From positions 2,232,001 to 2,296,000 of the forward strand of contig NZ_CP019646.1 of the NCBI RefSeq assembly GCF_001999965.1: DNA of 64,000 nucleotides, read 5' to 3'. Under the pieces are notes generated by a model. That model worked only from the letters and a program-made list of their open reading frames with translations. It was not told the DNA's origin and did no database searches. The stretch is from Limihaloglobus sulfuriphilus. Lineage in GTDB: Bacteria; Planctomycetota; Phycisphaerae; Sedimentisphaerales; Sedimentisphaeraceae. Below are positions 53,595 to 64,000 of this stretch, in pieces (positions within the stretch are counted from its first letter, which is position 1; the number at the start of each line of letters is the position of its first letter). Both the position numbers and the translations under genes were made by a program.

Positions 53595-53667
<73 letters not shown>

Positions 53668-53742
53668 TTCCATAAAGCTTTGTAAGCTAAAGACTTGCAA
53701 GGCTTCTTCTTTTTTAGTCTAACCTTAAAAAAGCCCGTGGTG

Positions 53743-54954
53743 TCACTTTGGTGTCACTTGCGTTAGCTCTTTATTAAGCATCTTGTCTAAAAGATTACCG
53801 GCCGTAGCCAAATCTTCCTCGCGAACGCTCAAATAAAAGCCCATCGTAGTAGATATACTGCTGTGCCCTGCCAATTTATGCACCGCCTGAAACGGCAAAG
53901 CCGAGGCCCAGTTCGTAATCGCACTTCTGCGTAGATCATGAATAGTGGCTTTGGCAATTCCTGCACGTTTTTGGATTTTGCTGAAATTAGCCCCAACATT
54001 GTTTACTACCCATGACCTCTCGTGCCAATCTCCGGAACGCTTTCGTTCCAATATAGTTTGAAGCCGTTCTGGGGTAATAAATATGTAAGGATGGCCTTCT
54101 GGGCAATCTATTTGCATATCAACCAACAGTTTTATTGCATCTTCAGCTATCGGAACTACGCGATTACGTCTGCCCTTTGGCTCCCATGAGATAATGTTAT
54201 CTTTTGATTTCCTTGCCTCAACATTAATCCGCTGATTTACAAAATCAATGTTATTCCAGGTCAAATGAAGTATCTCATTGAGACGAAGCCCACTGCTGTA
54301 TGCAACAGCGATGAAAGTTTTCCACCACTTATTTACAGCCGCATCCTTCAGGGCAAGATACTCTTTAATGGTCACGTATCGCTTAGGCTTATCAGTTACC
54401 CTGCGGGGTTTAATCCTGCTAAAAGGATTGCTGCCCTCGGGCAGATAACCTCGTGGGTCAATAGCCTTATTGAAGATACTTTTTAGGGTTCGTAAGTATT
54501 TATTGACCGTGGAAACAGATAACTCATTAGATGCAAGTCTGTCTGCAATAAATGCTTCCGCGTCACGGGGCAGTATGTTCTTTAATTCTACCGCCTCACC
54601 TATGAACTTTTCAAAGATCCGTAAAATATTCTTATGTTCCATATATGTGGCGTAACTCACCTGCCCGAAAATTATCTTTTCGTGCTCAAGCCTGAAATTC
54701 CGCAGACTTACCTTTTTAGGTCTGTCAGCCTTGCCCATGTAAACCTTCGCCTGAAGTTCACCGGCAAATCTTTCGGCTTCTTTTTTGGTCTTGAACACCT
54801 TGCCGTATCGTTTTCCATGACAGTTTTTCCATCGCACTGCCCAGTTGTGCCGCCGCTTGCGATGCCACAACTCTCTTGCGATTGGTTTGCCATGTTTATC
54901 CTTTGGCACTGGCTCAAGCCATTTTGGGTATACGCCAACTTTTTCATATGCCAT
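53743..54954 (-). CDS. Tyrosine-type site-specific integrase
   Basis: A 403-residue recombinase. The N-terminal part carries an AP2-like arm-binding region (WAVRWKNCHGKRYGKVFKTK near 38-57), followed by a SAM-like core-binding domain (about 95-185). Catalytic residues are Arg in SSGLRLNEI, the His/Arg box HDLRRSAITNW, the His in LAGHSSISTTM and the nucleophile Tyr in GFYLS. All are in place, so it is predicted to be active. Its 3-prime end lies 76 bases from tRNA-Phe, the usual layout for elements using a tRNA end as target. Confidence 0.93.
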   Translation of the reverse strand: MAYEKVGVYPKWLEPVPKDKHGKPIARELWHRKRRHNWAVRWKNCHGKRYGKVFKTKKEAERFAGELQAKVYMGKADRPKKVSLRNFRLEHEKIIFGQVSYATYMEHKNILRIFEKFIGEAVELKNILPRDAEAFIADRLASNELSVSTVNKYLRTLKSIFNKAIDPRGYLPEGSNPFSRIKPRRVTDKPKRYVTIKEYLALKDAAVNKWWKTFIAVAYSSGLRLNEILHLTWNNIDFVNQRINVEARKSKDNIISWEPKGRRNRVVPIAEDAIKLLVDMQIDCPEGHPYIFITPERLQTILERKRSGDWHERSWVVNNVGANFSKIQKRAGIAKATIHDLRRSAITNWASALPFQAVHKLAGHSSISTTMGFYLSVREEDLATAGNLLDKMLNKELTQVTPK

Positions 54955-55062: not shown

Positions 55063-55314
55063 TCATATCTCGGTCTTGTTTTCCAGGAACTTATCCAGCT
55101 GTGAGCGCAAAAACCACACATTCCTGACATACCGCGTAGCCCTAAGCTCGCCCCTGTCACGCCAGAATTTGAGATTCCGCAAGGCTTGTTTTTGGGACTG
55201 ACCGATTTCGTCAAGCCGCAAATACATCGCAGCCTCAATAGAAGTCATTAAGTCGGGGAATTTTTCAGGCCTTGGAGGCCAGGTAGCAGCAATAATATGT
55301 TTACCATCACTCAT
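55063..55314 (-). CDS. Excisionase-like small DNA-binding protein
   Basis: An 83-residue protein next to the integrase. Residues with DLMTSIEAAMYLRLDEIG, then LRNLKFWRDRGELRATRYV and WFLRSQLDKFL look like a MerR/excisionase winged helix, in which a helix-turn-helix is followed by a beta hairpin and the phrase (R)xxWFLRSxLDxFL. The frame opens at 55356 from a TTG; the ATG at 55314 is chosen. It probably controls excision direction or early transcription; this is inferred from position and fold. Confidence 0.7.
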   Translation of the reverse strand: MSDGKHIIAATWPPRPEKFPDLMTSIEAAMYLRLDEIGQSQKQALRNLKFWRDRGELRATRYVRNVWFLRSQLDKFLENKTEI

Positions 55315-55379
55315 CTTATATGATTCCACCCGACCGGACACCCCTGTCTTCTGCAAGATGCCCGGTCTTTTAGTTACAC

Positions 55380-55658
55380 TTAGCCTCTGGATAACATTCC
55401 CAATATTAGCAGCTTAAACACCGATAATACAGTAATGCCAAGCACCAGACTGCTGTTTTCAGAAAGGTTTGGGTTAACACACCTTCTTACAGTGTCAATT
55501 ACACGAAACACGATCAAACTACCTGCCTTATCAAGGGCATCAAAGCATGACACACGCAACCAGTTCCGCAACAAGCGAACACCAAGAAAGAAGATCACAA
55601 TATCAATCAAAATAAACAACAGACTTAAATGCCCGCCTGGATAGCCAAGGATTATCAT
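55380..55658 (-). CDS. Small membrane protein downstream of the JAB-E1 gene
   Basis: A 92-residue protein with two hydrophobic segments (about 10-28 and 70-88) separated by a charged loop (RNWLRVSCFDALDKAGSLIVF). No family is recognised. GGAGG six bases before the ATG, and nine bases from the E1 stop, place it firmly in the operon. With the 69-residue membrane protein (57838) it suggests that the conjugation machinery works at the membrane. Confidence 0.75.
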   Translation of the reverse strand: MIILGYPGGHLSLLFILIDIVIFFLGVRLLRNWLRVSCFDALDKAGSLIVFRVIDTVRRCVNPNLSENSSLVLGITVLSVFKLLILGMLSRG

Positions 55659-55667
55659 GATGACCTC

Positions 55668-57212
55668 CTATTGGGTTTCCTGGGGCCCTACCTGAGCTTC
55701 GATTACTTCGGTTGCTTCGACCTGAGCCCTGGTATCTTCGTTTTCTGCATTATCTGCCAGCTCAACCGCCTTGCCAACCTTTGGAGAGTCAATACCTCGC
55801 GATACACATGGCCTTGGAGGGATAATGCTTTTTAATGATATCTCACGAACATCACCACAGCCAAGATAACCACGCCTGCCACATACCGGACAATTATCAT
55901 TACGATCAACCGATGCTGTGAACATGGAAGCTTCCCTTGCATTGTAATGCAGGTATTCTTTACCGTTAATGCCGTCTGCAAATAGCATCCTGACAAGTTG
56001 AGAAATAGCCAGATGACAGGTAACACCATTAAGATGAAGCACTGATGGGGTCGGAGTCGAATTAGTTCCTCTGACATAGCCTGCCTGTGCGTACTGAGCT
56101 TTTGCCTCATCATCCATCTTATCCAGCGCTGCACTTGATGGGTCAATTGACCCCGAACACATAAGACATCCGGTTCTTCCGGGTAGAAACACCTGAATCT
56201 GACCGATTGACTCATACTTGTCGTCCTCGGGAATAATCTCAGTGCCAAGATCGATGTATGGAACCATATATCTTGACGCAAGGCTATTGAGCGTCTGTCT
56301 TGCCCCATCGTTATCGATACAACCGATAATAACATTGGCTTCCTTTATACATTCCAGCATCTTCGCATCATCAAGCGGCTCGGTATAACACTCAACATTT
56401 GTCTTATGCCCACGGTGTTTTGCATAAGCCTGTGCAATCTTTGCCTTAGTTTCCCCGATATCTTTGGGACGTGCATAAGGAATGCGAGGCAGATTTGAGG
56501 CTTCAAGGATGTCCGGATCACATGCCTTGATCCAGCCGGAATGGCTCCCTACACCAAGAGCCAGCAGGCTTTCAAATACCAGTGCACCGTTACCGCCAAG
56601 ACCGCCGACAAAGACTTTTGTATCCTCAAGTAGCCCCTGCTTCCAGCCTGGAATGATGCGGTGGCGGGCATAGGGGTCGTCCTTGCCGCCCTTGGCATCG
56701 TTAACATCGTAACGTAGAATCATGGTCGGAGACCCCAAAACCTCAATCCGGTTGACTGGTTCAAACCTCTCGTTTTTCCTGTCCCAGATTCTGGCCTCAA
56801 AGTTGTCAAAACCGCGACCAAAAACAATCATTCCCATCTCAGTGGTTTTAGGGAAATTTGCCGAGATATAACTGGCGTTCGCCATACCGTGATGGTTGTC
56901 AATCCCGCTGAACCGTGCCTTTGTACTAAAGGGGTGCGTATGGGTATCAAGAATTGAGAGTCCCTGATCAAAGGCAAGACTGTAAACTAAAGCCTGATAC
57001 ACCTGATCCGGCTCAATTGACACCGAAGACTGGTTCTTGAGTTCCTCACGGTCAGGCACAACCAACTGTTTGCAGATATAGGTCATGCAATCATTAGTCA
57101 TAGCCCTTGAAAACAAGCCGTAGATAAAACTTTCATCTGAGCCTGATTCAGCTAGATGATTTGTCAGAACTTTGTAATAATCAGTAGTAAATCGTATTAT
57201 TTTCTTTTTCAT
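55668..57212 (-). CDS. JAB peptidase-E1 (ThiF) fusion of a ubiquitin-like system
   Basis: A 514-residue fusion. Residues 1-165 form a JAB/Mov34 domain with the JAMM pattern H-x-H-P...S-x-x-D (His91, His93, Ser102, Asp105), a zinc peptidase expected to trim or remove Ubl. Residues 190-450 form an E1/ThiF domain: nucleotide loop GGLGGNG (203-209), Asp232 of the ATP site, zinc cysteines Cys349/Cys352 and Cys441/Cys444, and a candidate thioester cysteine Cys399. A low-complexity acidic tail ends the protein. It follows the E2 gene by five bases. The gene arrangement recalls Bil, Bub and CBASS Cap2/Cap3 systems, but the JAB-first fusion differs from the forms I know best. Confidence 0.9.
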   Translation of the reverse strand: MKKKIIRFTTDYYKVLTNHLAESGSDESFIYGLFSRAMTNDCMTYICKQLVVPDREELKNQSSVSIEPDQVYQALVYSLAFDQGLSILDTHTHPFSTKARFSGIDNHHGMANASYISANFPKTTEMGMIVFGRGFDNFEARIWDRKNERFEPVNRIEVLGSPTMILRYDVNDAKGGKDDPYARHRIIPGWKQGLLEDTKVFVGGLGGNGALVFESLLALGVGSHSGWIKACDPDILEASNLPRIPYARPKDIGETKAKIAQAYAKHRGHKTNVECYTEPLDDAKMLECIKEANVIIGCIDNDGARQTLNSLASRYMVPYIDLGTEIIPEDDKYESIGQIQVFLPGRTGCLMCSGSIDPSSAALDKMDDEAKAQYAQAGYVRGTNSTPTPSVLHLNGVTCHLAISQLVRMLFADGINGKEYLHYNAREASMFTASVDRNDNCPVCGRRGYLGCGDVREISLKSIIPPRPCVSRGIDSPKVGKAVELADNAENEDTRAQVEATEVIEAQVGPQETQ

Positions 57213-57217
57213 GTTTA

Positions 57218-57598
57218 TTATCCTCTCGTTGGGGGCTTTGTCATGTGTGCCCGTAACAATTCAAAAAAAGTGATTAAATCATCCGAAGATGAGTTCCAGG
57301 CAATGCTTTCATAGCACCACCAGCTCCACCCCGGCGGGCCGACATCTCTATGGAAATCTTTTGGTACCTTATTATTATACCTGAGCATACTTGGAACAAA
57401 CACCCTGGAACTACCCACGCCCGGGGGACTTTCAGGGTAGTTCGTCGGGAGTGCCAAAAGGACTCTAATAACACCCGTATTATAACCTGGAGGCAGATTG
57501 AAATTATCTACATAAAGGTTTCGTTCAGTGTCATCAAGACTGATGTTGTACACACAAGATAATCGCATTAAATCATCTTCCAATATCTGAGATATCAT
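57218..57598 (-). CDS. E2-like ubiquitin-conjugating protein
   Basis: A 126-residue E2-fold protein. Strands GVIRVLLALPTNYPESPPG hold the E2-type YPxxPP signature (54-59). The active-site stretch WSWWCYESIAWNSSSDDLIT places a candidate catalytic Cys95 before the W...DDL helix that replaces the WSP of eukaryotic E2s. The His-Pro-Asn motif is not present, as in other prokaryotic E2 families. The frame is open to 57733, but the ATG at 57598 follows the Ubl stop by one base (TAA G ATG) and has AAGGAGG inside the last Ubl codons as ribosome site. E2, Ubl and E1 are therefore translationally coupled. Confidence 0.85.
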   Translation of the reverse strand: MISQILEDDLMRLSCVYNISLDDTERNLYVDNFNLPPGYNTGVIRVLLALPTNYPESPPGVGSSRVFVPSMLRYNNKVPKDFHRDVGPPGWSWWCYESIAWNSSSDDLITFFELLRAHMTKPPTRG

Positions 57599-57599
57599 C

Positions 57600-57821
57600 T
57601 TAACATCCCCTCCTTGCCCTTGGAGCCTCCATGAATCTTTCAAAATTCTTGATATCCAGCTCACCGTCTCGGGGAATAATAGTGTTACCGCCATTGGGTT
57701 TCTGCTGAAGAACAACACGGTTATCAGGTACACCCATTGCGTTTCTTAGTTCACGGGCATCAACCCGTCCGTTACTTCTTTGAGGGACATTAATTTCTCG
57801 TCCGCCTGCAAATACTCTCAT
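57600..57821 (-). CDS. Ubiquitin-like protein ending in RRGC
   Basis: A 73-residue predicted beta-grasp protein: strand MRVFAGGREINVP, helix VDARELRNAMGV, strand NRVVLQQKPN, turn and strand TIIPRDGELDI, and a tail FMEAPRARRGC. The C-terminus places a single Cys after Arg-Arg-Gly, so removal of one residue would expose a ubiquitin-like glycine. The neighbouring JAB domain is the obvious candidate for that step. AAGGAG eight bases before the ATG sets the start. Sequence similarity to ubiquitin is weak, and the assignment rests on size, predicted strand order, tail and neighbours. Confidence 0.82.
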   Translation of the reverse strand: MRVFAGGREINVPQRSNGRVDARELRNAMGVPDNRVVLQQKPNGGNTIIPRDGELDIKNFERFMEAPRARRGC

Positions 57822-57837
57822 TTTAATTCTCCTTGAA

Positions 57838-58047
57838 TTATTTGTTAAAAAATCTTAAAATTAAGGCCACTATAGCTATCAACGTTAGCAGTGCCATTAA
57901 CGCTTGTAGGTTATCACTCCAATACGTCACCCCACCCAGACTCTCGCATATCCACTGATACAATGGCTCAAACATATGCAGAATCTGGCGGAGGTTGAGC
58001 AGAATCAGGATCACAATGATCGCTTTGATTATTTTTTCCAAGCTCAT
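57838..58047 (-). CDS. 69-residue two-helix membrane protein
   Basis: Two hydrophobic segments (about 5-24 and 47-66) flank a short aromatic loop (FEPLYQWICESLGGVTYW). No family is recognised. Its ATG overlaps the ATPase stop by four bases (ATGA), and the Ubl gene begins 16 bases downstream. Probably a membrane anchor or target of the conjugation system. Confidence 0.75.
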   Translation of the reverse strand: MSLEKIIKAIIVILILLNLRQILHMFEPLYQWICESLGGVTYWSDNLQALMALLTLIAIVALILRFFNK

Positions 58048-60062
58048 ACTATGCCTTTCTTTAGAAATGAATTAAATTTACTGAAATGTGAATACTCAAA
58101 CTTATCGATAAGTTCATTTGGCAATGAAGTAATTTTATTGAAGTAGGCCTTAACAGCCTTCGCCGATGCAGCATCCTTAGTCAACCATACTATTTTCTTA
58201 TATGAGGTATCCTGCAATTTAGCGGCATTGCTTAGCAGGTTGCCGGTATTGAGAGTGATTTCTACCGCAAACATCTCAGCTTTCCCATTTATCAGGGTAA
58301 CATCTATTGTTGCCCCTTTTTGGCCAGCAGGAGTTTCTGTCTGAACCTTTAATCCTTTACACTGTTTTGACAAGTGTGCTGCTAAACCAACATAAAACGA
58401 GTGTTCAACACTCACGCTTCGCTCATAAGGGACAGGAACATTGAATTTATCATATGTCTGTTTTGTGGGAATCAAATACACACTCTTGCCTGACATTGAA
58501 TGAAGTAGATAACCTTCCTGTAAAGCAGAATTCACGGCAGTTTCATACACACGAACCGAAACTCCCATCCGATCAATGTGTTCTCTAACCTTGGAATATG
58601 GATAATGAATACAGTCTAAGAGCAGTTTATCAAGTGCGGTATTAACATTGGAAACCTGCTTTATGGGTTTTGGGGCCTCACTTTTTGGAACCTCAGTCAG
58701 AGAATGCCAGGGTACGATCATGTTAGAGCAATCCGTGATATTCACATCACCTTCCGCCTCATCGGGAACAAAGGGAACCCAGCCGTGGACAGGCCTTGAC
58801 CATGCTGAACCTGAGATAAACGCAAGGGATTCACGTTTTTGGAACCGCAGGATACTGCTCTTTTGTTCCGGCGTGAGTGACATATAACTTTGGAGTACAC
58901 GCAGGTTATTTTCTCCATTGATGTTACCAACAACAAACATATTTCGGCTAAGTGCCAATACTGCCGGGTCAATCTGTGATGGAATTTGAGTTGCAAACAT
59001 AACAGCAACTCCTGCTGATCTAAGAACGGCTAATATATGCCCTAACGGAGACGTTCTTTTCTCGGAGTGGAAGGTGTTGGGAACACCTACAAACCTCGTA
59101 CTGTCATCGATAATTAAAAGATGCTTGATTACCTTTGTTTCAGAAACATTCCTATATTTCTGATAAAGCCAAAAGAGGAGGTAATTTAAGAGACCTTTAC
59201 ATTCAACCTCGCCGGTAAGGCAACGGGCATTTATAACAGTGTTTTCGCCAAACAACCAATCTAATGAGAGACCTTTTCTGCAACTGAAGATATTTGAAGG
59301 GCCGAGTAACTGGGATAAGCCAAATTTGGCTGCATCAAGATAGCCTTGAGTACGAAAACTCTTTGGCTTGAACTTAGCCAAAGATTCATAAATATCTTTT
59401 AAGCAAAGAGTGGTATCGCCACCATACCCACGAAGCTGAGAAAGAGAATCATCAACTGCTCTGTTAAAAAAGTCTACCCCGAAGATGACAGAAGTGATAT
59501 TTGCAAGAATTGGCATAAACTCAGTAATATAATTATCCTGCTCCACTCCCAAAGGAGATGATAAATCAAATGACATCTTACCAAGGTCTAAATGTCTAAA
59601 AACCGATAAGCTGCTAAAACCATTTTTAGGGTCAAGAATCAGTACTTTTATATCAGGACGTATTATTGATAACTGCTTACAAATAGAGGTTATAAGTCGT
59701 GATTTACCCATACCCTGCGGACCTAAAACTAAGGCTCCGGTAAGCAGTTTATCCGGATCAATGGAAAACTTAACGCCATCCATCTGATCAAGCAGATGCA
59801 AATCTCCCTGATTTAACAGCACTTCGGGCCCGTATGGTCGAAAACTATCGTAGGTTCTCTGTGCATCGGTATTAAACATTTTAAGAAACTCGAAAAGATG
59901 CTCTAATTTTGAATCAAAAATTCTTTGGTTACGAGCCTCATTTATGGTCTTAAGCAGAAATTGTATCTTTGGATCACTCAGCAGCTCATTTTCTCGCAAT
60001 TCTTGTTCAAGAGCTCTGATCTTACGAGCATTTTCTTCAAGTAGTGCCAACGGTATACTCAT
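58044..60062 (-). CDS. HerA/FtsK-type P-loop ATPase
   Basis: A 672-residue ATPase. An N-terminal coiled coil (about 5-65) precedes Walker A GPQGMGKS (114-121), the following strand VLILDPKNGF (140-149) typical of HerA/VirD4-like enzymes, Walker B HLLIIDD (Asp319-Asp320) and the sensor strand VMFATQIPSQID near 360. The C-terminal 190 residues contain a winged-helix-like part (KVREHIDRMGVSVRVYETAV) and an end segment (GATIDVTLINGKAEMFAVEI) whose Asp...Glu spacing resembles PD-(D/E)xK folds, but the expected Lys is Thr. It overlaps both neighbours by four bases. It might move DNA, or remodel Ubl-modified substrates; either is inference. Confidence 0.85.
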   Translation of the reverse strand: MSIPLALLEENARKIRALEQELRENELLSDPKIQFLLKTINEARNQRIFDSKLEHLFEFLKMFNTDAQRTYDSFRPYGPEVLLNQGDLHLLDQMDGVKFSIDPDKLLTGALVLGPQGMGKSRLITSICKQLSIIRPDIKVLILDPKNGFSSLSVFRHLDLGKMSFDLSSPLGVEQDNYITEFMPILANITSVIFGVDFFNRAVDDSLSQLRGYGGDTTLCLKDIYESLAKFKPKSFRTQGYLDAAKFGLSQLLGPSNIFSCRKGLSLDWLFGENTVINARCLTGEVECKGLLNYLLFWLYQKYRNVSETKVIKHLLIIDDSTRFVGVPNTFHSEKRTSPLGHILAVLRSAGVAVMFATQIPSQIDPAVLALSRNMFVVGNINGENNLRVLQSYMSLTPEQKSSILRFQKRESLAFISGSAWSRPVHGWVPFVPDEAEGDVNITDCSNMIVPWHSLTEVPKSEAPKPIKQVSNVNTALDKLLLDCIHYPYSKVREHIDRMGVSVRVYETAVNSALQEGYLLHSMSGKSVYLIPTKQTYDKFNVPVPYERSVSVEHSFYVGLAAHLSKQCKGLKVQTETPAGQKGATIDVTLINGKAEMFAVEITLNTGNLLSNAAKLQDTSYKKIVWLTKDAASAKAVKAYFNKITSLPNELIDKFEYSHFSKFNSFLKKGIV

Positions 60063-60631
60063 GACCGGGAGTCCTCTCTAAACGGCGAAGCAAGAAAGGA
60101 TAACAACTTGCTTAACAACTGCTTACGCCTATATTTTTGCTTGCATTTCTTGCATAGTTGGACTGTTGAACCATCGGGCATACTAACTGGACGGATATGG
60201 ACAGAGCAGGCATTGATTCCACACTTATCGCACTGGCCGGCACTTGAAATTGTATAATAGCTTTTCGCATGGGCCTCTTCGAGGCTTATTTTTTTACGGC
60301 GATAAGCCGCCTCTGCTTCCTGTTTGCAAAATGGACACTGACCATAGACATCATTAATGTCACTGACCAGTCTGCCGCTGCCGAGACTGCGGTTTATAGT
60401 TTTTGAAGTGTCTTTGGCCTGATCGCCCTTGACCTCAACTGATTTCACCACACCAAACTCAAGATCGGTTCCGGCTATTTTTTCAATGACCTCTTCAGAT
60501 TCCAAATATGACAGCTCATCATCAGAGTCTTTAGGCTTCTCACCAGAATCGCTTTGAGGAGGTGTCGGCTGATAGGGCAAGTGAGCCGGGTGTGACTTTT
60601 TTGTAAATATACGTTTAGTTAGCTTAGACAT
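60059..60631 (-). CDS. Eight-ligand zinc protein, possible RING-like E3
   Basis: A 190-residue protein with a disordered acidic N-terminus (to about 95) and a C-terminal metal domain. The ligands form four pairs: Cys99/Cys102 (CPFC), Cys134/Cys137 (CDKC), Cys142/His145 (CSVH) and Cys160/Cys163 (CKKC). The pattern C-x2-C-x31-C-x2-C-x4-C-x2-H-x14-C-x2-C suits two zinc ions in a cross-brace treble clef, as in RING, FYVE or AN1 fingers. In a Ubl/E1/E2 operon this makes an E3 role plausible. A basic helix (KQKYRRKQLLSKLLSFL) follows. The ATG at 60631 lies six bases after GGAGG. Confidence 0.8.
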   Translation of the reverse strand: MSKLTKRIFTKKSHPAHLPYQPTPPQSDSGEKPKDSDDELSYLESEEVIEKIAGTDLEFGVVKSVEVKGDQAKDTSKTINRSLGSGRLVSDINDVYGQCPFCKQEAEAAYRRKKISLEEAHAKSYYTISSAGQCDKCGINACSVHIRPVSMPDGSTVQLCKKCKQKYRRKQLLSKLLSFLASPFREDSRS

Positions 60632-60648
60632 AATATACCTCCACAACC

Positions 60649-60798
60649 TTACACTACTCTGACAAACCTGGACATAATGAAATCTTCATAAGACGATGGA
60701 ATAACTCTCTTCGCTATATTATCTGAAGATCCCTTACCGGGATCGCCGTGAGCGGAATTGTTGTTTTCACCAGATTTTCTAGGTTCTTGATTTCTCAT
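60649..60798 (-). CDS. 49-residue leader protein of the Ubl operon
   Basis: A short open frame (MRNQEPRKSGENNNSAHGDP..., ending IMSRFVRVV) with a good ribosome site (GAAAGG, six bases before the ATG). It ends 17 bases before the zinc-protein start. It is hydrophilic and probably disordered at first, with a hydrophobic end, and matches no family I know. It could be a substrate, adaptor or regulatory peptide of the system. Confidence 0.55.
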   Translation of the reverse strand: MRNQEPRKSGENNNSAHGDPGKGSSDNIAKRVIPSSYEDFIMSRFVRVV

Positions 60799-61038: not shown

Positions 61039-61371
61039 CTAATTAATTTCATAATAAAAGTTTTCCGAATCTTTCACTTTAGAAAGGATATTGGCTTGAC
61101 TTTGCTCTGACAGCACCTGAGAGCAATAAACATCTCCTTCGTAGATTACTTTAGAGCAGTTTGGCTTAAATGAAAATGCAATATAATGAGTCTGCATGGT
61201 TTCTTTAAATAAGTACTGATAAATATAATTAGCCACTTCCTTTTCAGATGATGATACAAAAGGAGGGTGATCAAGTGGTAAATTACCTTCAGCTACTATA
61301 TTCTCAATAGGACTCGAAGGTGAGCGAGAAAGACCAAATACACAAAATCTATAGCTTTTTAACGGCGTCAT
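61039..61371 (-). CDS. Hypothetical protein, 110 residues
   Basis: A soluble protein of unknown family on the Ubl-operon strand: KSYRFCVFGLSRSPSSPIEN, then SSEKEVANYIYQYLF and YIAFSFKPNCSKVIYEGDVY. Alternating strands and helices look protein-like, but there is no Shine-Dalgarno sequence before the ATG. It lies between the NACHT gene (divergent, 130 bases away) and the candidate operators. It may be a genuine member of the defence cargo; coding status is uncertain. Confidence 0.5.
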   Translation of the reverse strand: MTPLKSYRFCVFGLSRSPSSPIENIVAEGNLPLDHPPFVSSSEKEVANYIYQYLFKETMQTHYIAFSFKPNCSKVIYEGDVYCSQVLSEQSQANILSKVKDSENFYYEIN

Positions 61372-61501: not shown

Positions 61502-64000
61502 ATGGAAACTCTTGAACAGAAAAAAAAACAGCTTTCAGATGAGCACTTTAAAATTGTCAAGTTTTTACGAGACAATGAGTTAAAAAACGAAATCCTTAGC
61601 GACAACCTAAACACCCATCTTAATGAAAAGGAAAAGGTTGATGTAATAAACCTGCTCAAAATCATATACAAATCGTTTGGATTGTCTCAAAAATCGATTA
61701 GTGAAAAAAAGGACATGCACAGTTACCACAGATTTGTTTCACGCACAACAGGTGATTTGAATCGAGTCTTGCAAAGTTTTTGTCACAATAAAACTTTGCA
61801 CGCTATCCAACTCTATTTTGCTACGTACCATTCTGAAAAAATCAAAAATATTGGTTGCCATCTTGTTTGCACTACTCCTAAAGAAGTTAAAGTATTTAAA
61901 AAATACAAAAATGGCAGTACTAAAGAAACCACAAAGGTCTGCTCACATGAGATAACACCACTTGAAGAAGCACTGAACTTCGATTCAGATTTAGAACAAT
62001 TTCGATCTGAGTTGAAACAGGATGCGATTGACAATTTGAGAGATAAGTTACATGGTGAGAAAATTGAAGATTACAGACCTTTGGAGCTTGAGATCGGCAC
62101 ATTCGATGAAAAGAAAAACACGGCAGAAAAATCGTTCATTGATCATAACCGAGATTGGAAGCCATTTCATCGAGATATGCTTCTTGATTTGCAAGGAAGG
62201 TATATCCTAACATCAGATACAGGCAGAGGAAAGACAACTTTCTTAAGACGTCTTCAACTTGATATCATCAAAAAAGACAATGGATTAATTCCTATCTATT
62301 TACATGTAAGTGAAATATCTGATTTCAACTTAGGTAAGAAAAAGTTTGAAAGCTTTCTGCGAAATTTATCTGATTTGTTTAAGGACTACGTGAAAGACGC
62401 TAAAAGTTTCCTTTTAAAAAATAAAGATAAAATTGTTTTTCTAATTGATGGCCTTGATCAAATTCCCGGGGTTGGATCAGCCTATATAAATGCAGCTGAT
62501 GAAATTTTAAAGACAATAAGTAATAGACTTGTCTTAACCTCAAGGCCATTTGCAATAACACAATTAGAACAAAATAGAGATTTAGCTTTTCTTAGGCTCA
62601 AACCATTTAGCCCAGATTTAATTGAAGAATATTATGGTGATCACTACGACATAGCAATTGACCTCTGTCATCGCTGTAGAGAAATGTTATCAATTCCAAT
62701 GTTGGCTTACATGGTACGCTTATTAATTATTGAGGGGCAAGCTGGAGGAGTAGATAACCGCACACAGCTATATGAACGCTTTATTGATTACTTATTTGAC
62801 CCACAAGAATACAAACATGAAAACTTGAATATTAGTGAGAGCAAATTACTTGAGATACGACGTTCATATGAAAAACTGTCTTATGATGCGATCAATAATG
62901 AGCCGCCAGATTTACAACAAATACCTTTTGATTTGGCTCATTACTCGGCAAGTGTTGAAGTTGATATTTTATTAAAATTAGGGCTATCACAACTTTATGA
63001 GATAAGAAGAAAAGAAAGGGAAAAAATACTATACTTTTCCCACCAGTCTTTCCAGGAATACCTTGCCGCTGTCCACATAAGCGAACATGAAGATTTGATT
63101 GCGAAGGTACTTAATGAAAAATGGAATCCAAAATGGAAAGAAGTCTTACGTTTCCTTGTAGGCTTGAATCAAGTAAAAGGCAATGAAATTATTGATAGAA
63201 TACTTAACGAAAATGACTTTTTTTTCAGGCCAAAGCTTTTACTGGCTGCCAAATTAGTGCCTGAGACAAAAGTTCCTTTAGCTACCCAAAATATCATTTA
63301 TGACAGATTATTAAAAGTTCCTAAATTTCCAGGCTTTTTCCCTGATCTTGCAAATGCCCTATACCAATCAAATTATACTAGATTTTATTCGATGATAAGA
63401 AGCTTAATAGATCACGGAGAGATAGACCAAGCTGTGGACTTTTTATCTCATTTACATGCGATGAGCTACGACAATGCAACAGAGGACAGAATCATCCATA
63501 AGTTACAATATTATTCATATGAAAATATTATTCACATAGTAAAAAACATTGACATTCAAAAGCTTAATAGAAACAACCAAAAAAAGATTATTTTTTCATT
63601 AATAAACTGTATCAAACTCGGGGATAATACTACATCATTTTCTGCAGCAAAAATACTTAACGACACCCAAATTGATGAATCTATTTTGCACAGACTTCTA
63701 CCTTGTCTTGAACATGAAAACCCTAATGTTGTAATTAAAATAATCAATCTCTTGGGTAAAACAGAATTTCAACATGACGAACTAACACTCCACTTACTTA
63801 GAAAACTCAAAGACACAAATCCAAATATAGTTTTTGAAACAATGGTTACATGTAGAAAGCTAAAGTTATTCGATCTTGATATATCAGAAATGATTTCTTC
63901 TAAGATTTATGATGATCATCTATCTTACGCAGTTATACCTTACGTACTCTACCAAGTTTACCACAAACATGGCATAGAACAAGTTACAGCAAAAATCTTA
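61502..64000 (+). CDS. NACHT-family NTPase, NLR-like, 3-prime end beyond window
   Basis: An open frame of 833 codons from the ATG at 61502 to the window edge with no stop. Residues 1-225 form an N-terminal region of unknown type (helical, then a beta-rich part with IGCHLVCTTPKEVKVF). The NACHT core follows: P-loop TGRGKTTFLRR (Lys244), Walker B IVFLIDGLDQIPG (Asp316, Asp319), LVLTSRP sensor near 341, and the winged-helix end with HQSFQEYLAAVHI near 517. From about 535 on, the sequence turns into HEAT-like helical repeats that would form a sensor array. bNACHT proteins are phage-defence NTPases; the N-terminal effector is not identifiable by eye. A TATAAT lies at 61450-61455. Confidence 0.88.
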   Translation, partial: METLEQKKKQLSDEHFKIVKFLRDNELKNEILSDNLNTHLNEKEKVDVINLLKIIYKSFGLSQKSISEKKDMHSYHRFVSRTTGDLNRVLQSFCHNKTLHAIQLYFATYHSEKIKNIGCHLVCTTPKEVKVFKKYKNGSTKETTKVCSHEITPLEEALNFDSDLEQFRSELKQDAIDNLRDKLHGEKIEDYRPLELEIGTFDEKKNTAEKSFIDHNRDWKPFHRDMLLDLQGRYILTSDTGRGKTTFLRRLQLDIIKKDNGLIPIYLHVSEISDFNLGKKKFESFLRNLSDLFKDYVKDAKSFLLKNKDKIVFLIDGLDQIPGVGSAYINAADEILKTISNRLVLTSRPFAITQLEQNRDLAFLRLKPFSPDLIEEYYGDHYDIAIDLCHRCREMLSIPMLAYMVRLLIIEGQAGGVDNRTQLYERFIDYLFDPQEYKHENLNISESKLLEIRRSYEKLSYDAINNEPPDLQQIPFDLAHYSASVEVDILLKLGLSQLYEIRRKEREKILYFSHQSFQEYLAAVHISEHEDLIAKVLNEKWNPKWKEVLRFLVGLNQVKGNEIIDRILNENDFFFRPKLLLAAKLVPETKVPLATQNIIYDRLLKVPKFPGFFPDLANALYQSNYTRFYSMIRSLIDHGEIDQAVDFLSHLHAMSYDNATEDRIIHKLQYYSYENIIHIVKNIDIQKLNRNNQKKIIFSLINCIKLGDNTTSFSAAKILNDTQIDESILHRLLPCLEHENPNVVIKIINLLGKTEFQHDELTLHLLRKLKDTNPNIVFETMVTCRKLKLFDLDISEMISSKIYDDHLSYAVIPYVLYQVYHKHGIEQVTAKIL

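Follow-up and report, generated by a model that had tools for sequence, protein, structure and literature searches.

Among described bacterial systems, the closest to the operon analysed here are the multiubiquitin (Bub) operons, type 6e of the classification of Iyer et al. (2006; PMC1779556), in which the E2-like protein has no catalytic cysteine. Bil systems combine a two-domain ubiquitin-like protein (Ubl), BilA, with a separate JAB peptidase (BilC) and a separate E1 that contains a Cys domain (BilD) (PMC11354881). According to PMC11090510, TerY-type vWA/PP2C/kinase and Hsp70 units accompany the nucleic-acid-processing ATPases of CoCoNuTs, and TerY-P triads are switches that act by phosphorylation and are linked to restriction and DNA-processing systems. 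The operon in the window (the whole analysed stretch of 64,000 nucleotides of a planctomycete genome) encodes a Ubl, an E2 with a conserved cysteine (Cys95) and a JAB-E1 fusion, placed among genes for a HerA-type ATPase, a zinc protein and two small membrane proteins. We propose that, in a family of integrative elements of planctomycetes, it forms the module nearest the integrase, a module of which the Bub-related Ubl cassette would be the variable part and a reversible switch, and we give this proposal an even chance of being correct.

The first-pass annotation had described eight tightly packed minus-strand genes, and all of these open reading frames were recovered (Table 1). The zinc protein/ATPase and ATPase/TM1 gene pairs overlap in ATGA, the spacing of the Ubl/E2, E2/E1 and E1/TM2 pairs is 1-9 bases, and the membrane proteins ascribed to the operon are indeed present as two small transmembrane (TM) genes, TM1 and TM2. 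As for the suggestion that the eight genes form a unit, the order zinc protein-ATPase-TM-Ubl-E2-E1 recurs in other planctomycetes and is therefore more than chance, but the 49-aa ORF is not conserved. Since it has no relative at that place in locus L022, it was dropped as a part of the system; conserved in its stead are the 110-aa upstream gene and the N-terminal domain of the NACHT protein.

Table 1. Features of the operon and of the integrative element that carries it (window positions unless stated otherwise).
Feature	Position	Strand	Basis or remark
tRNA-Phe	53595-53667		
attL, 47-bp exact direct repeat over the tRNA-Phe 3' part	53623-53669	+	
Tyrosine integrase	53743-54954	-	Pfam Phage_integrase 5.7e-23
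Excisionase-like HTH_17 protein (weak)	55063-55356	-	HTH_17 E=0.012
TM2, 92-aa membrane protein	55380-55658	-	Backbone gene; aligns with L021, L022, L087, L100, L101
JAB-E1 fusion (JAMM peptidase and ThiF adenylating domain)	55668-57212	-	Pfam, alignment, tree
E2, Prok-E2_E family, Cys95/H83/W91/W93 invariant	57218-57598	-	Pfam, alignment
Ubl, 73 aa, beta-grasp, C-terminus ...APRARRG-C	57600-57821	-	AlphaFold2 model, alignment
TM1, 69-aa membrane protein	57838-58047	-	Backbone gene; aligns with L012, L013, L021, L022, L087
HerA-type ATPase with predicted winged helix and PD-(D/E)XK-like domain	58044-60062	-	Backbone gene
Zinc protein, tentatively FYVE-like, eight ligands	60059-60631	-	Backbone gene
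49-aa ORF	60649-60798	-	No counterpart at that place in L022; status uncertain
110-aa gene upstream of operon	61039-61371	-	Similar to L022 4794-5186, L087 3622-4029
NACHT gene, divergent	61502-64000, on to about 64750 outside the window	+	NACHT 1.6e-10
Second HerA-type ATPase, predicted nuclease-fold-like C-terminal domain	L020 15190-17268 = window about 66689-68767		Outside the window
attR, other 47-bp copy	Genome 2344436-2344482		58.8 kb off, past window end

The mobile location assigned to the operon was confirmed: it lies inside a 58.8-kb element inserted at tRNA-Phe, with the integrase gene beside the tRNA and 47-bp repeats at both flanks. Only the start of this element (first 10 kb) falls within the window; the remaining ORFs, read on the single 3.87-Mb contig of the host genome, include transposases, a methyltransferase, a RadC-like gene and a second HerA-type ATPase. 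A phage-type integrase was found near the module in 10 of the 10 loci tested (most of the comparison loci being metagenome-assembled contigs), and an excisionase-like gene occupies a similar position in L021, L022 and L087 (HTH_17 5.7e-7 in L087). A viral origin was rejected, since viral contigs yielded no relatives of the E1 or the ATPase, and phage and plasmid records none of the ATPase.

The predicted complete Ubl-E2-JAB-E1 conjugation core was borne out by Pfam profiles, alignments and a model of the Ubl. The E2 matches Prok-E2_E (E=6.4e-7, residues 14-119), and its reported signature, Cys95 after YPxxPP, is seen as YPESPPG followed by a cysteine that, together with H83, W91 and W93, is invariant in an alignment of five sequences. 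The E1 part matches ThiF (E=7.6e-29) and contains the expected GGLGGNG loop and two CxxC pairs, and the JAB signature is equally clear, the JAMM residues E27, H91, H93, S102 and D105 being invariant in an alignment of six homologues. The same alignment shows an invariant adenylation loop and five invariant cysteines, four of them zinc ligands and one in a CDPD motif, so that no catalytic E1 cysteine stands out. The fold of the Ubl agrees with its assignment, the AlphaFold2 model (pLDDT 88.5) being a beta-grasp of the order bb-a-bbb with multiubiquitin 9cd2 (Z 8.7) and BubA 9ea8 (Z 7.4) as nearest solved structures. Its C-termini in the different loci (ARRG-C, AIRG-W, AVRG-DKK, AERG-R and AERG-E) follow the pattern R-A-x-R-G and then one to three residues, a tail that appears to have the form expected of a precursor trimmed by a JAB peptidase. 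In profile searches against PDB sequences, both domains of the JAB-E1 protein matched Citrobacter BubCD (2.5e-16, residues 8-406) and the E2 had BubB among its best matches (E=0.005); the profiles of the Ubl and the zinc protein gave nothing useful there, and a Pfam scan of these two and the TM proteins produced no match above cut-off. Since the nearest solved structures are Bub proteins, the Ubl/E2/E1 core is related to Bub (type 6e).

Three further metagenome bins each yielded a homologue, and another bin yielded two; those relatives that bear names belong to Planctomycetota. In the E1 tree the six planctomycete loci form one clade (100/100). This Ubl/E2/E1 clade is rare: in a scan of 85,000 species with strict E1 motifs, which may miss more distant relatives, it turned up in Planctomycetota only. 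Cys-type E2s also occur in haloarchaeal operons and in one cyanobacterial operon, and Bub-type E2s of planctomycetes and plasmids have Ser in the position of Cys95. The Cys-type systems L063, L068 and L064 group with the window clade in the E1 tree with moderate support (85/80); when the Ser-type loci L100 and L101 were added, both fell into this wider Cys-type group (82/86), so the Cys/Ser difference does not divide the tree cleanly. We take the window system to be a distinct clade and not a standard Bub operon. Two particulars of the Cys-type loci may be recorded. The haloarchaeal JAB-E1 proteins (L063 5878-7398 and L068 2815-4611) have C-termini that look like a single membrane segment, which the window protein does not share, and on the cyanobacterial plasmid the genes for the Cys-type E2 and JAB-E1 (L064 5136-7275) stand just before type III-B CRISPR genes (cas10/cmr2, cmr3).

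The eight zinc ligands of the zinc protein are invariant in four Ubl-type loci, in the order C-x2-C, C-x2-C-x4-C-x2-H, C-x2-C, which differs from that of RING proteins (C-x2-C..C-x(1-3)-H-x(2-3)-C-x2-C..C-x2-C) and fits the binuclear FYVE pattern CxxC/CxxCxxxxCxx(C/H)/CxxC. In comparison of the modelled core (pLDDT mostly above 90) with solved folds, all Z scores were low, the best FYVE match being 1vfy (Z 5.1) and RING matches reaching Z 2.4-2.6; the match to the Pfam FYVE profile was weak (0.71). We tentatively regard the modelled protein as FYVE-like and not RING. By hhalign (98.9%), the zinc proteins of the Ubl-type loci are homologues of those in the Hsp70-type loci. The first-pass annotation had put this protein forward as an E3; such a role is weakened by its FYVE-like model and by its occurrence in elements that contain no Ubl, E2 or E1 genes. 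The associated remark that an E3-like zinc protein is usually missing from known relatives holds only partly, as a different putative zinc-binding protein, DUF6527, with the pattern C-x3-C..H-x2-C, is a regular member of Bub operons (Iyer et al., 2006; PMC1779556). Separately, a RING-like cysteine-rich protein of 157 aa is encoded straight after the JAB-E1 gene in L012 (5824-6297), and its counterpart in L013 seems truncated.

The ATPase matches DUF87/HerA above the Pfam cut-off (E=1.4e-6), has GPQxxGK and the Walker B DD as invariants, and gives weak but significant PADLOC matches to mad8 (6.8e-10) and HerA (7e-7). Its C-terminus is predicted to consist of a winged helix and a nuclease-fold-like, PD-(D/E)XK-like domain, the nuclease part being recognised by motif pattern and profile homology. 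The second HerA-type ATPase of the element is homologous over both the ATPase and the C-terminal domains (hhalign 99.6%). This kinship, and the presence of the ATPase beside TerY-type or Hsp70 modules in loci devoid of Ubl genes, weaken the suggestion that it is a protein remodeller dedicated to the Ubl. Profile searches, which covered the class and order of the host in sampled, not exhausted, genome collections, placed the ATPase in 8 of the 161 genomes of the order (E < 1e-30). The second ATPase has a 145-aa partner, and similar genes are seen in L013, L012 and L029.

Comparison of sister elements separated a backbone from an exchangeable slot. The Ubl cassette has identical surrounding gene order in the window, L022, L012 and L013, and the partial contigs L021 and L014 are compatible with it. 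L087 and L086 keep the zinc protein and the ATPase, the latter as two pieces in L087, which additionally has TM1, TM2, an excisionase-like gene and an integrase; in both, the slot between the backbone genes holds a GrpE, Hsp70, vWA and J-like set and contains no Ubl, E2 or E1. From the ATPase end onward, L102 shows the same GrpE/Hsp70/vWA arrangement as L087. In L099 the slot encodes, according to profiles, a TerY protein (PADLOC 2.9e-18), a PP2C-like phosphatase (4.2e-5) and a kinase (7.6e-10), and in L100 and L101 a Ser-type E2 and a JAB-E1. No Ubl was recognised in the latter two, where a conserved ORF of 55-66 aa that is not beta-grasp-looking stands in the Ubl position (L100 9960-10160, L101 7270-7437). 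On gene content and alignment, the constant part is thus the FYVE-like zinc protein, the HerA-type ATPase, the two small TM proteins, the excisionase and the integrase. With the ATPase of L022, a Ubl locus, the window ATPase shares 53% identity, and with that of L099, a TerY locus, 52.5%; the three form a 100/100 clade in the ATPase tree, which indicates that Ubl and TerY modules have taken each other's place on closely similar backbones. The divergent upstream gene is of NACHT/STAND type in three loci (the window, L087 and L100) and short in two (L022 and L099), and the NACHT N-terminal domain is common to the genes at the equivalent place in L087, L100, L022 and L099. In L022 (3757-4644) and L099 (14764-15690) this domain forms a short standalone gene.

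Because the slot holds TerY kinase/PP2C/vWA or GrpE/Hsp70/vWA sets in sister elements, and by analogy with the TerY-P triads, the most fitting reading of the Ubl cassette is that of a reversible switch, which most likely would control the HerA-zinc-membrane machine or its substrates. The JAB domain would trim the residue or residues after the C-terminal Arg-Gly of the Ubl, and the ThiF domain would adenylate it. The Ubl might then reach Cys95 of the E2, perhaps with no E1 thioester on the way, given that the E1 proteins conserve no cysteine besides the four zinc ligands and that of the CDPD motif. Attachment to the target would dispense with a dedicated E3, and the JAB domain could take the Ubl off again. 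Against such a switch stand two considerations: the ATPase might work on its own, apart from the Ubl cassette, and genes that lie side by side in an element are not bound to act together. A broader proposition, that HerA machines of planctomycete elements take interchangeable Ubl, TerY or Hsp70 modules in one slot, with tagging and phosphorylation as functional substitutes in the control of one membrane-DNA machine, seems to us plausible but somewhat more probably wrong than right.

The operon could instead belong to a mobile defence island, in which the cassette would tag phage or host proteins in the manner of Bub or Bil and the HerA and zinc proteins would be a separate HerA-nuclease defence. 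The PADLOC matches of the ATPase to mad8 and HerA, the conserved divergent NACHT/STAND gene and the kinship of the core to Bub speak for this, as does the anti-phage activity reported in PMC11090510 for TerY-P-like modules by themselves. However, PADLOC gave no convincing match for the E2, Ubl, zinc or TM proteins, and the backbone genes overlap and pack with the cassette, which suggests joint work. For Bub operons, moreover, protection against phage has yet to be demonstrated (PMC13373217), which leaves defence, in our estimate rather unlikely, as one option and the transfer or maintenance of the element as the other.

On this other account, the ATPase would be the DNA translocase of a simple transfer system, regulated by the Ubl cassette and serving excision, DNA transfer or stability of the element. 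The adjoining integrase in all ten loci, the excisionase-like gene in several of them, the second, homologous HerA ATPase within the element and the two small TM genes of the backbone are in line with it, but inspection of the element's ORFs by eye revealed no relaxase or mating-pair genes and most genomes of the order are without the module, and we consider it improbable. Far less probable still is a pathway complete in itself from E1 to E3, in which the zinc protein would serve as the E3 and the ATPase would remodel the tagged proteins. One operon does hold all parts, and the eight zinc ligands are conserved, yet the zinc protein is modelled as FYVE-like and not RING, it and the ATPase are found together without any Ubl genes, and the ATPase belongs to the HerA superfamily and not to the AAA+ unfoldases.

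If the slot truly swaps Ubl, kinase/phosphatase and chaperone modules, these elements are a natural experiment on the function of bacterial Ubl systems. The reading of the cassette as a switch would, if true, also supply a short list of candidate targets, namely the HerA, zinc and membrane proteins encoded beside it, where for Bub we found no targets named. Finally, the occurrence of a Cys-type E2 beside Ser-type Bub relatives makes the evolution of E2 catalysis testable inside one protein family.

Compared with known systems, the window operon shares with Bub the Ubl, a Prok-E2_E family E2, an N-terminal JAB fused to a ThiF E1 and the order Ubl-E2-JAB/E1. It differs in having Cys95 where Bub E2s have Ser (W..WSRH or similar), in its single Ubl of 73 aa, in the absence of the DUF6527 gene present in Bub loci, in the added HerA, FYVE-like zinc and TM genes, and in the position of its E1 in a separate 100/100 clade. 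With the haloarchaeal and cyanobacterial plasmid operons L063, L068 and L064 it has in common the Cys-type E2, a small single Ubl and a JAB-E1, but their annotated flanks contain no HerA, FYVE-like or integrase genes. Bil (BilABCD) likewise comprises an E1, an E2 with a catalytic Cys, a JAB and a Ubl, whereas JAB and E1 are fused in the window and the Ubl has only 73 aa; the PADLOC match to BilD is weak (E=0.002). CoCoNuTs are built on an McrBC-type core and not on HerA, and the account of their modules in PMC11090510 describes, in the parts concerned, no ubiquitin-like option. HerA-nuclease and MADS defence proteins resemble the window ATPase through its weak but significant profile matches to HerA and mad8; in the window, by contrast, HerA is fused to predicted winged-helix and nuclease-fold-like domains and stands beside zinc and TM genes.
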